Assembly: GCA_030653545.1 (NCBI GenBank)
Contig: JAURZE010000015.1
Coordinates: forward strand, 1 to 64,000
Source of the DNA: Nitrospira sp.
Lineage (GTDB): Bacteria; Nitrospirota; Nitrospiria; Nitrospirales; Nitrospiraceae
Length of the DNA stretch: 64,000 nt
Direction: 5' to 3'
The notes beneath the pieces were generated by a model. That model was given only the letters and a program-made list of their open reading frames with translations. It searched no databases and had not been told where the DNA came from. Position numbers and translations under genes: made by a program. Below, piece after piece: positions 45,605-59,144 of this stretch; the stretch's first letter is position 1; each line of letters starts with the position of its first letter.

Positions 45605-45627
45605 TACATTCTGTGCCATGAGTCGTG

Positions 45628-45659
45628 AAGGGGCTGTCACCGCAAGGTGGCAGCCCCTT
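45628..45659 (+). terminator. Terminator-like hairpin after the RRM gene
   Basis: AAGGGGCTGTCACC (45628-45641) pairs with GGTGGCAGCCCCTT (45646-45659) around the loop GCAA, one mismatch. The stem is strong, but only a few T residues follow (CGGCGTTTCTG), so termination is plausible rather than certain. It sits 23 bases after the stop codon. Confidence 0.6.
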
Positions 45660-45755
45660 CGGCGTTTCTGCGACCGGCGGCCTTGTCATTCTAAAGACGA
45701 GGGTGATAAGACAGCTTGGTCGGGGCGCCGGTCCGTTGTTCCAAGGAGGAAGATT

Positions 45756-46430
45756 GTGGGGAGTCAGGGAGAGGTACGTTCGTCGACGGTGGCGCTCTCG
45801 GAGCTGCAGTCGTTTTCATTCCGCCAGAGTCCGGTGCTGGTCGTGGAAAACTTTTGGTCGGCCGATGAGCGGCAGTATTTCCGCGACGCGATGAATCAGG
45901 CGGCCTGGAAGAGTTTGTCGGATCTTCCCAAGGTGCGGGAAGATTTCCCGGATTCAGGCAATTGGGCGAAAGCGGAGATCGGCCCGGCGCAGGGGAATCG
46001 ATTCTTGTCCCGATTGCAGCTGCCTTGTATTCAGGAACACATGGAATCGTTTCCGAACATCATCGGCCGCCACATGGGGTTCAGTTACTACTCGTATTCG
46101 GCCGGGGATTGCTTGCTGACGCACGACGATACCGATCAGGGGCAGCCGGTCGGAGGCCGACGGGCCCCGTCACGGCGAATTGCGCTGGTGAGTTATTTCC
46201 ACGAGGAGTGGCAGTCGGATTGGGGAGGGGAACTGATCGTCTATGCCACTCGTTCGACCCACACGGCAGAGAAGCCGGCATTGTCCGTCACGCATTGTAT
46301 CGAGCCTCGTCCGGGGTCCCTGGTCATGTTCACCGTGCCGCGGTTTCACCGTGTGTGTCGGGTCGATCAAACGGCCGGTCAACACCGACGCCTCTCCATC
46401 GCAGGCTGGTTCATGACGGAGCATGCCTAG
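45756..46430 (+). CDS. 2-oxoglutarate/Fe(II)-dependent oxygenase
   Basis: The GTG at 45756 is chosen because AAGGAGGA lies just upstream; the frame is open much further. The product of about 224 residues has the 2OG-Fe(II) oxygenase pattern: HxD in CLLTHDDTD (about 120), distal His in FTVPRFHRV, and RRLSIAGWF with the basic residue that binds 2-oxoglutarate. The N-terminal half resembles prolyl-4-hydroxylase-type (PF13640) enzymes. It would hydroxylate a protein or small molecule. It is the next gene after the RRM protein; a functional link is only a guess. Confidence 0.75.
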   Translation: MGSQGEVRSSTVALSELQSFSFRQSPVLVVENFWSADERQYFRDAMNQAAWKSLSDLPKVREDFPDSGNWAKAEIGPAQGNRFLSRLQLPCIQEHMESFPNIIGRHMGFSYYSYSAGDCLLTHDDTDQGQPVGGRRAPSRRIALVSYFHEEWQSDWGGELIVYATRSTHTAEKPALSVTHCIEPRPGSLVMFTVPRFHRVCRVDQTAGQHRRLSIAGWFMTEHA

Positions 46431-54174: not shown

Positions 54175-55620
54175 TTAATCCTGAGCTGAGCGGGTCTTAA
54201 GGGCATCCAGCCGTTTTTTATCCAGACTGACATGGAGAGACTTATCTTGGGTCACTGTGACGGCGCCGGGCGCCTGACCCTTGGCTTTCTTCACCCACTT
54301 GCGCCGCGTATAGATCACCTCGCCTTTTCCGCTTTTCTTGAGGTCGCTATAAAGTAACGCCAATGTTGCGGCGTCCCGGATGGTTTCCGGTGGCGGGTCG
54401 CTGCCCTTTTCGAGGCGCACGACCACATGGGATCCCGGTGTGCCGCGAGCATGGAGCCAGAGGTCGTCACTTTTGGCGAGGCCGAAGGTCAATTCGTCGT
54501 TCTCCCGTGCATTCCGTCCCACAAAGATCGGGAGCCCATCCGATGAGGTGAAGCGGCGAAAGGGGCCGCGCCGTTCTTCCGGCCGTTCGTTCGCTGTCAA
54601 TCGATCCCGTTGCCGAGTGGGCGCAGTGGTTGACGGTTTGACCGGTGCCGGTTGCCAGGTTCCTTGCTCGATGGCGGAGAGCTCCCGGCGGAGCGCATCG
54701 ATCTCGGCTTCTCCCCGTGCAATCCGAGGAAGCAGTTCTCGCTCCGCTGTCGCGTGCTTCCGTTGTTTGCGGAAATAGTCGTCCATATTGCCTTGAGCAG
54801 ACTTCGTCGGATCGAGCGGGATCGTGAGTTGGGGCAGGGCCTCATCGAAGTAGTCGACGACAACGATCGACTCCAGCCCTTTCTTGATCGTGCCCAGGTT
54901 GGCCTTCAACAATTCTCCATAGCGGGCATAATGGCGATATTTCTCCGCTTTAACGAGGTCGCTTCGCCAGGCCTCCACGCGCCGCCCCTGTTTCTTGATC
55001 GCTTTTCTGATCTGGTTTGCGCGGGCGTCTCGGACGGCGGCCGAGTTGTCCGTCGATTCTTTCTCGTCATAGTAGGATTCAATTGCGGCGGATAAGCCGC
55101 ACGGCCCGTGCGCATCGGCTGCGAAACGGGTGTCTCGTTCCCGTGGTCCGGCACCGGCTGAAAGAGCCGGTGTTTGGTATGGTGTGCCATACATGTCGGT
55201 CGAACGATTCAGATCTCTCAACAGCCGTCGTTCAAAATCAAGCACCAGAAGATTGGCTCGGTTGCCGGTCAGTTCTGCAATCAATCGTTGGGGACCTGCT
55301 TTGGTCGTGAGCGACAGGGCCACGATACGGTCCCGCCCTTCTTGACGAAGGTCGTCAACCCGTGCGCCGTGGAGATGAGCCCGAAGGTATTGGCAAAAGG
55401 GCGGCGGAGCTGGCGGATTCTGCAACGCATGAGTGATCAGGTGAATGCGCGTCGATGCGGGATGGGCCGAGAGCAGCAGGCGATGCGTGTGTCCGGGCGT
55501 TCGGATTTCCAGCACGACCGTCCGTGATGTCGGTTGATAGGCTTTTTGGATCCAGCCTCCGATCAGCGCCGGAGCCAGTTCAGCTACGACCTGGGTAATT
55601 TCTGTCGCCGTCAGTGCCAT
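54175..55620 (-). CDS. rqcH: NFACT/RqcH-family ribosome quality-control protein
   Basis: A 481-residue protein of the NFACT family (RqcH, once called fibronectin-binding protein A). The NFACT-N part includes LTATEITQVVAELAPALIGG and HTHRLLLSAHPASTRIHL; a central coiled coil runs from about 220 to 330 (KYRHYARYGELLKANLGTIKKG); NFACT-R lies at about 355-450 (SSDGLPIFVGRNARENDELTFGLAKSDDLWLHARGTPGSHVVVRL). Bacterial RqcH adds alanine tails to stalled chains on the large subunit. The gene is 41 bases upstream of the GAF regulator, in the same orientation. Confidence 0.88.
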   Translation of the reverse strand: MALTATEITQVVAELAPALIGGWIQKAYQPTSRTVVLEIRTPGHTHRLLLSAHPASTRIHLITHALQNPPAPPPFCQYLRAHLHGARVDDLRQEGRDRIVALSLTTKAGPQRLIAELTGNRANLLVLDFERRLLRDLNRSTDMYGTPYQTPALSAGAGPRERDTRFAADAHGPCGLSAAIESYYDEKESTDNSAAVRDARANQIRKAIKKQGRRVEAWRSDLVKAEKYRHYARYGELLKANLGTIKKGLESIVVVDYFDEALPQLTIPLDPTKSAQGNMDDYFRKQRKHATAERELLPRIARGEAEIDALRRELSAIEQGTWQPAPVKPSTTAPTRQRDRLTANERPEERRGPFRRFTSSDGLPIFVGRNARENDELTFGLAKSDDLWLHARGTPGSHVVVRLEKGSDPPPETIRDAATLALLYSDLKKSGKGEVIYTRRKWVKKAKGQAPGAVTVTQDKSLHVSLDKKRLDALKTRSAQD

Positions 55621-55906: not shown

Positions 55907-56134
55907 ATGAAGTGCACAAGATGCGAAGGTCTCATGGTGGTCGACAATCTGGTCGATTTGCAGGAAAGCTGCGTGCCCATGTGGATGCGCGGTATGCGCT
56001 GTGTGTCCTGCGGTAATATCGTGGATCCGTTGATTCTCCGTCATCGTATGATTCAGAAATCCGGAGCGATGAAGCTCCTGAAGCCTGGCGTGCTGGTGCC
56101 GGAGTTTGCAGAGCATCTGAAAGCCACCGCCTGA
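55907..56134 (+). CDS. Small CxxC zinc-ribbon-like protein
   Basis: The ATG at 55907 follows GGAGGATGCT and gives a 75-residue protein. It opens MKCTRCEGLM and has MRCVSCGNIV later, a pair of CxxC motifs that should bind zinc (CxxC...CxxC). A basic tail RHRMIQKSGAMKLLK follows. Small proteins of this type are widespread and unknown, possibly DNA- or protein-binding. It is followed 176 bases later by the HExxH protein gene in the same direction. Start uncertainty is only 4 codons. Confidence 0.65.
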   Translation: MKCTRCEGLMVVDNLVDLQESCVPMWMRGMRCVSCGNIVDPLILRHRMIQKSGAMKLLKPGVLVPEFAEHLKATA

Positions 56135-56310
56135 TCGGTTGGTGCAGGGCCTTCGCCACAATCTGAGTGCGTTGACCGCGCCCGAACCCACGCATGGGAT
56201 ATTCTCCCTGCCGTTTCCGAATCTTTCCAGCTCAGGTTCCTTCTTGCAGGCCCGTCCTTCCTACGTTACAGTCTCCTTCATTTCAAAACGGCTGTTACGG
56301 GAGGCGGAAG

Positions 56311-57876
56311 GTGCTGCTATTCGATTCCCCATCGCTCATCGCACTGAATCTTGAACTTCGATTGTCCATGCGGAAGCTGCTCCAGGATCTCGGCCGGGAG
56401 TTGCAGGACGATTACGCTGAATTGGCATCACAGCTCGTGTTTCCAGCAGACTATGTGCAATTTCTCAGTCGCAGGTTGAAAGCTGAGGACTTGTCCAATT
56501 GGAAAGTCGTCGGGTGGATCGAGTCGCTGAACGATTGTGTGTACTTTCTGGATATTTGGCAGCAGTGGCGGACGGAGTCGGACCGCCGGGAGTTTGCCGA
56601 ACAGCTGTTTGCTGAGTGTCAGGAAAAGTTTTTCGAAAATAGTTATCTCGACGAGCTGTTTCCCAAAGGTAAACCGCAGGTGACTGGTCTGGATGGCCGG
56701 CTCGCGCGGCTGTGCAAGCGACTGGCGCAGGATATTGCGCAAGAAGCCCTGTGGCTCGATCCCGCCGCTGCGACCGCCTGGTGCCGCATGGGCAAGAAGG
56801 TGCCGTGGAACGTGCCGGGCAACCTGGCGCAGAACTTTGAAAAAGCGGAGGAGGCCGGTGCCGTACCCCTTGGAGTCGCAGGGGATCAATGCGAAGCGCC
56901 GCCTTCTCTGAAGCGTGTCCTGACGCGCGCAAAAAGCCGTGCGGTCTTTCGCATCGATGAGACTGGGATTGCCTTGAAAGTCGGGCGACTACTTGCCCCG
57001 GTCTGGTCTGCTGTCGGCGGGCAGGCTCAATGGCATTGGGCGGTGCGTCCGACCGCTGAAGTTCTGTGTACCTCATATGGCGCAGTGACCGTCGGATCCA
57101 CCCTCATGTATGGCAAAGACCGTCAGCCGAAGAAGGTGGTTCCGACAGACCCGAAGCAGGCCGCACGGATCCGGCGGGCCTGGGAAACGATTCATACGGC
57201 ATGGCCTGAAGGGCATGAGGTCCTGGCGCTGTTGACCTCGCGGATTATTCCGCTCAACGCGAAGGGCGTCGTCAGTTTCAGTTACCGCCATCGTCCCGGC
57301 CTCTCCTTCATCAATTGTTTCGACCGTGACAATCTCGACCTTATCGACGATCTGATTCACGAGAACAGCCACCACCACTTGAATCTGCTCCTGCGCAAAC
57401 ACGTCATGTATCACGGCGACCGCAATCAGCAGATCTTTTATTCGCCCTGGCGCCGGAGCCTGCGCCCATTGCGCGGGATTCTGCACGCGACCTTTACCTT
57501 CACCATGGGGGCGCTGCTGTTCGAGCGGCTCTCGTCGTGGGCCGAGACGAAGCAGGGAATGAAGCAGTGGAAAGCGGCCGGATTAACGCAGCGCGATCTC
57601 ATGCGGGCGCGCTTTCGCTGCCTTGAAGAGATCGAATCAGTCCGCTACTCGATTCAGGATCTGGAATATGCCGGCGGGCATCTGAAGTGGTTGACCGGAT
57701 CCGGCGCACGTTTAGTGAGGCAGCTGGAAGAGCAGATCGGGAATGCCGAAGCGCACATCCTCTGCCACCGCGAAGCGGTCATGCGCTCCACGTTCGGCCC
57801 CGCCATCCGGCGCCACATCAAGGAGCTTCAGCAGGCCCGCCAAGCCTTCGGGCCGGTGCGGTTGGGGGCGGTGTAA
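56311..57876 (+). CDS. HExxH protein resembling 2OG-dependent peptide hydroxylases
   Basis: The GTG at 56311 is chosen: GGGAGG lies at ideal spacing and the MLLFDSPSL segment follows. The frame is open from 56194. The product of 521 residues has a central LIHENSHHHLNLLL motif (HExxH at about 350-354), typical of proteins annotated as HExxH-type peptide-modification enzymes (aKG-HExxH beta-hydroxylases). The N-terminal half is helical (LLQDLGRELQDDYAELASQ). Some such enzymes hydroxylate RiPP precursors, but no precursor is seen near. A relic of its 3' end lies at 59057-59124. Confidence 0.65.
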   Translation: MLLFDSPSLIALNLELRLSMRKLLQDLGRELQDDYAELASQLVFPADYVQFLSRRLKAEDLSNWKVVGWIESLNDCVYFLDIWQQWRTESDRREFAEQLFAECQEKFFENSYLDELFPKGKPQVTGLDGRLARLCKRLAQDIAQEALWLDPAAATAWCRMGKKVPWNVPGNLAQNFEKAEEAGAVPLGVAGDQCEAPPSLKRVLTRAKSRAVFRIDETGIALKVGRLLAPVWSAVGGQAQWHWAVRPTAEVLCTSYGAVTVGSTLMYGKDRQPKKVVPTDPKQAARIRRAWETIHTAWPEGHEVLALLTSRIIPLNAKGVVSFSYRHRPGLSFINCFDRDNLDLIDDLIHENSHHHLNLLLRKHVMYHGDRNQQIFYSPWRRSLRPLRGILHATFTFTMGALLFERLSSWAETKQGMKQWKAAGLTQRDLMRARFRCLEEIESVRYSIQDLEYAGGHLKWLTGSGARLVRQLEEQIGNAEAHILCHREAVMRSTFGPAIRRHIKELQQARQAFGPVRLGAV

Positions 57877-57934: not shown

Positions 57935-58105
57935 ATGAAGCGGCACGTTCTTAAAGTCAGGAAGGCTACTGTTAGTAAAGCCAAGAAGGGCAGCCTTCCA
58001 GAATCTGCTGCAATGCGGCGCAAGGTAAAACAAACCTTTGCGGCGCAGGTCGATGCGTTCATCGACCGCTATCGCCCCGCTCTCGAAGCCCTCGCCAAGC
58101 GGTGA
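57935..58105 (+). CDS. Putative antitoxin of a Doc-type module
   Basis: The ATG at 57935 gives a 56-residue basic protein (MKRHVLKVRKATVSKAKKGS...). It overlaps the GTG start of the following doc gene by 4 bases (GTGA), the usual coupling for an antitoxin ahead of its toxin. The composition and length fit a small antitoxin or DNA-binding partner, but it is not the standard Phd fold. The toxin reading frame carries a stop codon, so the antitoxin may now be an orphan. Function is inferred from position. Confidence 0.5.
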   Translation: MKRHVLKVRKATVSKAKKGSLPESAAMRRKVKQTFAAQVDAFIDRYRPALEALAKR

Positions 58106-58494
58106 TCTATCTCAGTGTCGAGCAGGTTCTCTTTCTTTACGATCGCTTGATCGAGGAGACGGGTGGGCAGCACGGTGTCCGCGATCTCGGTGGACTACAG
58201 TAGGCTCTCGCGCTTCCGCAGGCGGTCATCGCTGATACTGAGTTCTATCCAGACGTGTTCAGTAAGGCCGCGGTTTTACTGGATGGGCTGACGAGAAATC
58301 ATCCCTTTCTCGATGGGAATAAACGGATCAGTATTGCGACCGCCGCCCTGTTTCTGGAAGTGAACGGCTATCGCGTGACTACGACGAATACTGATTTGGA
58401 AGGGTTTACAATACATGTGACGACGATGGAGCCAGGCCTTGATCAGATTACCAAGTGGTTCAGAGACAAAACCGTTCGAATCGCCCGGCGTTGA
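58102..58494 (+). pseudogene. doc (Fic-fold) toxin gene interrupted by a stop codon
   Basis: From GTG 58102 the frame encodes the Doc family N-terminus (IYLSVEQVLFLYDRLIEETGG, VRDLGGLQ), then an in-frame TAG at 58201-58203, and continues with ALALPQAV and DVFSKAAVLLDGLTRN, including the Fic-type HPFLDGNKR motif (58294-58320) and a stop at 58494. The stop lies where family members have Ser (E/Q-S-A), so a single C-to-A change (TCG to TAG) explains it. The toxin should be truncated after about 33 residues unless read through. A downstream ATG at 58255 could still make a fragment with the active motif. Confidence 0.8.
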
Positions 58495-58518
58495 TCAAAA
58501 GCCCATAGAGGTGATGCC

Positions 58519-58638
58519 ATGGACACGAATTCAAATAAGGTACAAGCCAAGGTTGGAGTAGGCCGGGCGGGGATCAAGGCGATTGCCAAGGACCTTCGCA
58601 AACAGTACGGATCAATGCTGAAACGGCTGGCAGGCTAA
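58519..58638 (+). CDS. Possible 39-residue basic small protein
   Basis: A frame of 40 codons starts at ATG 58519 with AGAGGTGATGCC upstream. It encodes MDTNSNKVQAKVGVGRAGIK and then AIAKDLRKQYGSMLKRLAG, a basic peptide with a helix-forming second half. It lies 24 bases after the broken doc gene in the same direction. I recognise no family. It could be a real small protein or chance; the composition is better than random because basic and hydrophobic residues alternate in the second half. Confidence 0.4.
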   Translation: MDTNSNKVQAKVGVGRAGIKAIAKDLRKQYGSMLKRLAG

Positions 58639-58650
58639 AGAAGCTATAGG

Positions 58651-58848
58651 TCACGAAAGGCGGCGGTAGGGTTCGGTATTCTTCTCCATCACCCGCATGG
58701 CAGTGGCACGGAATGCGTCATCAGGCTGACCAATGAAGTCCATGATGCCGAGGCGCACGATCTGCTCGACCGTCAGCCCCTCGCGTTTACCCAATACCTC
58801 CAATCGCCGCATTTCTTCATCTGAAAGAGAAATCGTGACCGTTGCCAT
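58651..58848 (-). CDS. Ribbon-helix-helix antitoxin-like protein, orphan
   Basis: The 65-residue product has the pattern of a ribbon-helix-helix antitoxin: an N-terminal strand TVTISLSDEEMRRLEVLGK followed by two helices, with the C-terminal segment MRVMEKNTEPYRRL, which is the toxin-binding end seen in some type II antitoxins. It has a good ribosome site (AAGGAACC) on the reverse strand. No toxin frame follows it downstream, so it is an orphan. It faces the broken doc gene and the 39-residue frame. Confidence 0.7.
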   Translation of the reverse strand: MATVTISLSDEEMRRLEVLGKREGLTVEQIVRLGIMDFIGQPDDAFRATAMRVMEKNTEPYRRLS

Positions 58849-59144
58849 GATTGGTTCCTTCGCTTTGGATGCTGCAACTCATAATGAAGTTAGCATAGGG
58901 GAAAGGATTTCTGAGGGCAAACTCTTGAAGTGAACCTGCCCTCATATAAAGAAGCTTCACCAAGTTCATCGAATGTACGGGTTGGTCTGGTGGTCAAGAG
59001 AGGACGGTTCAAAGCACCATTCTCGTTCCTGCTGAGAAACGATTTATTACTCCATTTTCGGCCCCGTCCTCCGCTGCCTATCAAGGAGCTTCATCAGGCC
59101 CGCCAAGTCTTTGGACCTGTGCGGACGACATTGCTAACTCAGCG
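58849..59144. other. Non-coding interval holding a gene relic
   Basis: Between the orphan antitoxin and the PIN-like gene there are 296 bases with no convincing gene. The right part (59057-59124) is a decayed copy of the end of the HExxH gene. The left part includes the upstream region of the antitoxin gene. No tRNA or strong terminator is seen. Confidence 0.5.
59057..59124 (+). repeat. Decayed copy of the 3' end of the HExxH gene
   Basis: Bases 59057-59124 match 57793-57861, the region encoding the last residues of the HExxH protein (FGPAIRRHIKELQQARQAFGPVR). Shared blocks include TTCGGCCCCG, ATCAAGGAGCTTCA and CAGGCCCGCCAAG; about one base in six differs and one base is missing. The translated relic reads IKELHQARQVFGPVR. 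It marks a past duplication or insertion of the gene with loss of the rest. The similarity ends before the stop codon. Confidence 0.75.

Follow-up and report, generated by a model that had tools for sequence, protein, structure and literature searches.

The locus lies in a window of 64,000 nucleotides, the whole stretch of DNA that was analysed (contig JAURZE010000015.1, positions 1 to 64,000, forward strand), from a Nitrospira sp. genome of 3.94 Mb (GCA_030653545.1). An intact gene for an HExxH protein of 521 aa occupies positions 56311-57876 on the plus strand, exactly where a preliminary description had placed it. Its start is the GTG at 56311, and homologues begin at the equivalent position, mostly with ATG; the mechanical open reading frame runs from 56194 and comprises 560 aa. 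The immediate surroundings also proved to be as first described, with a small CxxC protein encoded upstream and a toxin-antitoxin patch downstream. The genes and features considered here are as follows:

45618-46430, plus strand: 2OG-Fe(II) oxygenase (PF13661, E 1.9e-20)
54175-55620, minus strand: NFACT/RqcH-like protein, divergent, the most consistent flanking gene (PF05833, E 2.5e-62; PF05670, E 1.2e-14)
55907-56134, plus strand: small zinc-ribbon-like protein with two CxxC motifs, 75 aa, a frequent but dispensable neighbour according to the neighbourhood comparison
56300-56304, plus strand: GGAGG, six bases ahead of the GTG, a likely ribosome-binding site by consensus match only
56311-57876, plus strand: predicted aKG-HExxH-type oxygenase (TIGR04267 family), GTG start, 521 aa, assigned by TIGR04267 score, homologue starts and fold match to 8s5f
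56782-57153, plus strand: beta-rich insert domain, residues 158-281 (AlphaFold2 pLDDT of 90 when modelled alone; faster evolving)
57358-57372, plus strand: HExxH motif, residues 350-354 (HENSH), with H350, E351 and H354 invariant, aligned with LIHEHRHQKL of ChlH
57442-57468, plus strand: SPWRRSLRP loop, residues 378-386 (SPW and RP also in ChlH and the sister-family protein L064; APW and RP in SjiH)
57936-58850 (approximate): toxin-antitoxin patch

Family assignment and conserved site

The HExxH protein matches the NCBIfam family TIGR04267 (aKG-HExxH-type peptide beta-hydroxylase), scoring 72.3 bits where the cut-off is 40 (E 4.7e-20), and a Pfam scan returned nothing over cut-off. A PDB sequence search retrieved ChlH (8s5f) at E 5.7e-10, or 9.2e-12 with a family profile, and more weakly SjiH (22nu/22ob). 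VVSFS, LIHExxH and SPWR..LRP..G.LHA.F.F are common to ChlH and the Nitrospira protein in the alignment, and the motif stretch itself reads IHENSHHHL. AlphaFold2 modelled the protein with a pLDDT of 87.4 and a pTM of 0.85, poor at residues 371-385, which include most of the SPWRRSLRP loop. Foldseek searches with this model returned only 22ob and 8s5f at E <= 0.001, both of them TIGR04267-type HExxH structures, and VIA-align superposed it on 8s5f with Z 21.6 (282 residues aligned, 3.5 A) and on SjiH 22ob with Z 18.8 (370 aligned, 4.9 A), the next-best row standing at Z 9.2. The protein therefore combines a TIGR04267/IPR026337 score, the HExxH motif with its PW...RP..G segment and, in the predicted model, the zincin-like fold of 8s5f, and its membership of the aKG-HExxH family is well supported. 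The TIGR04267 score and the likeness to ChlH bear out its first classification as a protein of the HExxH peptide-hydroxylase type.

In an alignment of 20 homologues reaching down to ~51% identity, residues H350, E351, H354, H355, H356, S378, P379, W380, R381, R385, P386, G389 and H392 are invariant. Given the TIGR04267 E-value and the invariance of H350, E351 and H354, the HExxH motif does not appear here by chance, judging from sequence. Eight positions are common to the Nitrospira protein, ChlH, SjiH and L064 (H350, E351, H354, P379, W380, R385, P386 and G389), whilst Q takes the place of R381 in L064 and of H392 in SjiH. The beta-rich insert is only 31-45% identical to that of most homologues and is possibly the substrate-recognition part; a PDB search with it gave no match at E <= 0.001, which does not imply a novel fold.

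HExxH is also the classical zincin motif, and the protein might accordingly be a zincin-like metalloprotease or act chiefly in polypeptide cleavage, its motif either binding zinc and hydrolysing or cleaving oxidatively. Precedent for cleavage comes from within the family: PflC and PosC also cleave the peptide backbone oxidatively, and PflC cuts truncated substrates hydrolytically and its intact substrate oxidatively (PMC12636437). However, the rest of the conserved site (SPW...RP..G) is of the aKG-HExxH type, as are all structures matched by Foldseek, and we consider a primarily proteolytic role quite improbable. On the TIGR04267 match, the likeness to ChlH in both sequence and predicted fold and the retained SPWR..LRP..G.LHA.F.F segment, the protein is best read as an aKG-HExxH oxygenase and not as a metalloprotease.

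Distribution and inheritance

A search of 198 genomes of the phylum found the HExxH protein in 44 of the 46 belonging to its own family, and a relative, as a weak match, in one genome of the sister family. TIGR04267 was detected in 155/175 Nitrospiraceae genomes and, among those of high quality (completeness >= 90%, contamination <= 5%), in 111 of 114, spanning 21 of 22 genera and nearly always in one copy, as in this genome; the gene is therefore core in the family. G179, G195 and G216 count as its losses, and the cultured species N. moscoviensis is among its carriers (L076). Protein identity falls from ~89-91% in the closest genomes to 60% across the genus and 52-55% in more distant genera, and since it drops with taxonomic distance, the pattern fits mostly vertical transmission. 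No relative was found on viral contigs, and tblastn gave no match on plasmids. In one scan of genome contigs, all 80 relatives listed look like Nitrospira-type genomes, so that this listing covers such genomes only.

The gene is under strong purifying selection: dN/dS between relatives is 0.068-0.164, the closest pair (0.068) being the most reliable because dS is saturated in more distant pairs.

Some individual records merit comment. At one locus (L083, 9001-11253) the 521-aa protein aligns over 2253 bases against an expected ~1560, and this copy may carry an insertion. Two loci titled uncultured Nitrosospira (L138 and L146) carry the Nitrospira gene and are probably mislabelled Nitrospira bins.

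Genomic neighbourhood and candidate partners

We compared the window with 35 loci of ~20 kb from other genomes, clustering all open reading frames of at least 30 aa. As a rule the genes are arranged in the order NFACT (divergent), CxxC, HExxH, a variable region, a PKD-type protein and an APC-type transporter, the last two encoded on the strand opposite to the HExxH gene. NFACT occurs in 31 of the 36 neighbourhoods, but three loci (from G060, G141 and G163) do not have it beside the HExxH gene, and it was rejected as an obligate partner. The same holds for the genes of cluster 26 (lipoprotein-like) and cluster 20 (a DUF2059 protein), each of which adjoins the HExxH gene in subclades only. The 2OG-Fe(II) oxygenase at 45.6-46.4 kb was likewise set aside as a partner: it lies in the same region in the main genera and is elsewhere or absent in others. 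Fifteen of the neighbourhoods compared have its cluster within a few kb of the HExxH gene, and distant genera carry it elsewhere.

The toxin-antitoxin patch varies in content, with Doc, VapC-like and ribbon-helix-helix genes in differing combinations even between close relatives, and it was not retained as part of the system. Downstream, both in the window and in two relatives, the cassettes are flanked by copies of the final 40-80 bases of the HExxH gene; on this sequence pattern, toxin-antitoxin cassettes seem to have inserted repeatedly at the 3' end of the core gene. Within the window, the last ~75 bases of the gene (57786-57861) recur at 59050-59124, past the patch, with 83% identity, and a weaker copy of the 3' end lies at 58946-58990; similar repeats surround different cassettes at L034 and L037. 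The Doc-type toxin gene of the window (58102-58494) is broken by an in-frame TAG, and its equivalent in L035 is uninterrupted.

The preliminary description had proposed an ordinary protein, such as the CxxC protein, as the target of the enzyme. A CxxC gene lies close to the HExxH gene (within ~2.5 kb upstream, co-directional) in 26 of the 44 enzyme-bearing family genomes, an arrangement that would suit a substrate or an obligate partner. However, in the other 18 the enzyme persists with no CxxC gene next to it: 15 of them, L046 included, have their best CxxC match away from the HExxH gene, and in three (G077, G159 and G163) matches are weak or absent altogether. The reverse loss is seen in G195, where NFACT, CxxC and lipoprotein-like genes stand in intact order and the HExxH gene is gone (on a 182-kb contig, with no Ns in the stretch read). 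The CxxC neighbour is truncated at L041, and only a decayed fragment of it remains near the HExxH gene at L046. CxxC relatives are moreover numerous in genomes that lack the enzyme, and this genome alone has seven members of the family. The two genes are thus not retained and lost together, and because they part in both directions, an enzyme-substrate pair is disfavoured; we rate a substrate or obligate-partner role for the CxxC protein as very improbable indeed. The neighbourhood analysis therefore went against the pairing, and these independent losses speak against the CxxC protein as the target, whilst the broader proposal of a target outside RiPP pathways stays plausible.

That no precursor lies nearby was upheld across the comparison: no precursor-like peptide is conserved beside the HExxH gene among the open reading frames of at least 30 aa in the 35 loci and the window, where the sole conserved small frames are the dispensable CxxC gene and the toxin-antitoxin genes. 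Nor is any recognisable RiPP enzyme conserved next to it in the 35 neighbourhoods; the neighbours identified are NFACT, a sigma-54 regulator and the PKD-type and APC-type proteins, with no radical SAM or MNIO protein recognised among them. The locus accordingly shows neither a precursor nearby nor maturases, a protease or an exporter in an operon with the gene.

A conventional RiPP-tailoring enzyme could still have its precursor at another locus, perhaps with maturases such as a divergent MNIO-like protein. The characterised relatives found in the literature do act on RiPP precursors, in many cases alongside an MNIO (PMC12636437, PMC13060819, PMC12707348), and such a protein is encoded elsewhere in this genome:

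G000:C33:174226-174981 (L156:5648-7147), minus strand: divergent MNIO-like protein, 499 aa (PF05114, 52 bits)

PF05114 matches occur in 56 of 60 family genomes. However, two genomes (G199 and G202) have the HExxH gene and no MNIO match, and G195 shows the reverse, so the two are not strictly co-inherited; RiPP clusters are, besides, usually patchy and linked, whereas the HExxH gene is core and stands alone. We therefore regard an unlinked RiPP pathway as somewhat unlikely. The MNIO-like protein is in its own right a second widely conserved RiPP-type enzyme in the Nitrospiraceae.

Proposed role and comparison with characterised enzymes

With Fe(II) and alpha-ketoglutarate, published aKG-HExxH enzymes hydroxylate peptides at Asp, His, Phe, Gln, Asn and Pro residues (PMC12636437, PMC13060819). 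Because the Nitrospira protein has the same fold and site, the same chemistry is predicted for it, and we infer its metal, cofactor, reaction and polypeptide target from these enzymes. On sequence and model, it would be an HExxH-fold oxygenase, functional and dependent on Fe(II) and alpha-ketoglutarate. H350 and H354, the putative Fe(II) ligands, would hold the iron; the SPWRRSLRP segment, a presumed aKG-binding or lid element, would help to bind alpha-ketoglutarate and close over the site, R385 above all, which is the best candidate for contacting the cosubstrate. Using O2 and alpha-ketoglutarate, the enzyme would then hydroxylate a side chain of a polypeptide, the beta carbon being the likeliest position. 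The gene would have been fixed before the Nitrospiraceae radiated and inherited mostly vertically since, with its product acting in trans on a protein or peptide whose gene lies elsewhere.

A lineage-fixed aKG-HExxH oxygenase that acts in trans in this way is the reading we favour, with moderate confidence. As the gene is present in nearly every species with no precursor beside it, the enzyme probably modifies an ordinary cell component; being core, single-copy, unclustered and under strong purifying selection, it is easier to reconcile with a housekeeping modification in trans than with a natural-product pathway. We suggest only tentatively that an aKG-HExxH oxygenase was domesticated in the Nitrospiraceae to hydroxylate a housekeeping protein, for example one of translation or of nitrite/ammonia oxidation. 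Were this true, the target protein would be tied to oxygen, iron and 2-oxoglutarate status, and the enzyme would represent a protein hydroxylase of prokaryotes that uses the HExxH fold in place of the usual double-stranded beta-helix.

The closest structural counterpart is the HExxH domain of ChlH (8s5f), an aKG-HExxH beta-hydroxylase of a cyclophane RiPP pathway, which has the same fold and site sequence. ChlH carries a fused radical SAM enzyme (PMC12636437; 8s5f title), whereas the Nitrospira protein has neither radical SAM enzyme nor precursor alongside, is 521 aa long with the beta-rich insert at 158-281, and is encoded by a core gene. SjiH (22ob/22nu), which its deposit calls a radical SAM core domain-containing protein, resembles the Nitrospira protein in fold (Z 18.8, 370 residues), in HExxH and in PWR..LRP..G, but is only 15% identical to it, with Q at the position of H392 and A at that of S378. 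PflC/PosC, BpmH/BipH and PesO, compared by description, belong to the same described family (IPR026337/TIGR04267) and apply Fe(II) and alpha-ketoglutarate chemistry to peptides; they sit in BGCs with precursors, MNIOs and transporters, and the Nitrospira gene does not.

A further comparison is offered by L064, a 313-aa TIGR04267 protein from G171, the one sister-family genome with such a protein; it shares HECMH and SPW....RP..G.LH and is about 200 residues shorter than the Nitrospira protein. Its context is RiPP-like, as it is preceded by a 403-aa radical SAM/SPASM-type protein and a 205-aa 2OG-Fe(II) oxygenase-like protein, both recognised by motifs. Set beside the Nitrospiraceae loci, this cassette places both contexts, the unclustered gene and the radical-SAM cassette, within one order. 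Taken together, the context and probable role of the Nitrospira protein differ from those of the characterised members found in the literature, all of which belong to peptide natural-product pathways, and an unclustered member fixed across a family of nitrite-oxidising and comammox bacteria suggests a housekeeping role for HExxH-fold hydroxylases as well.
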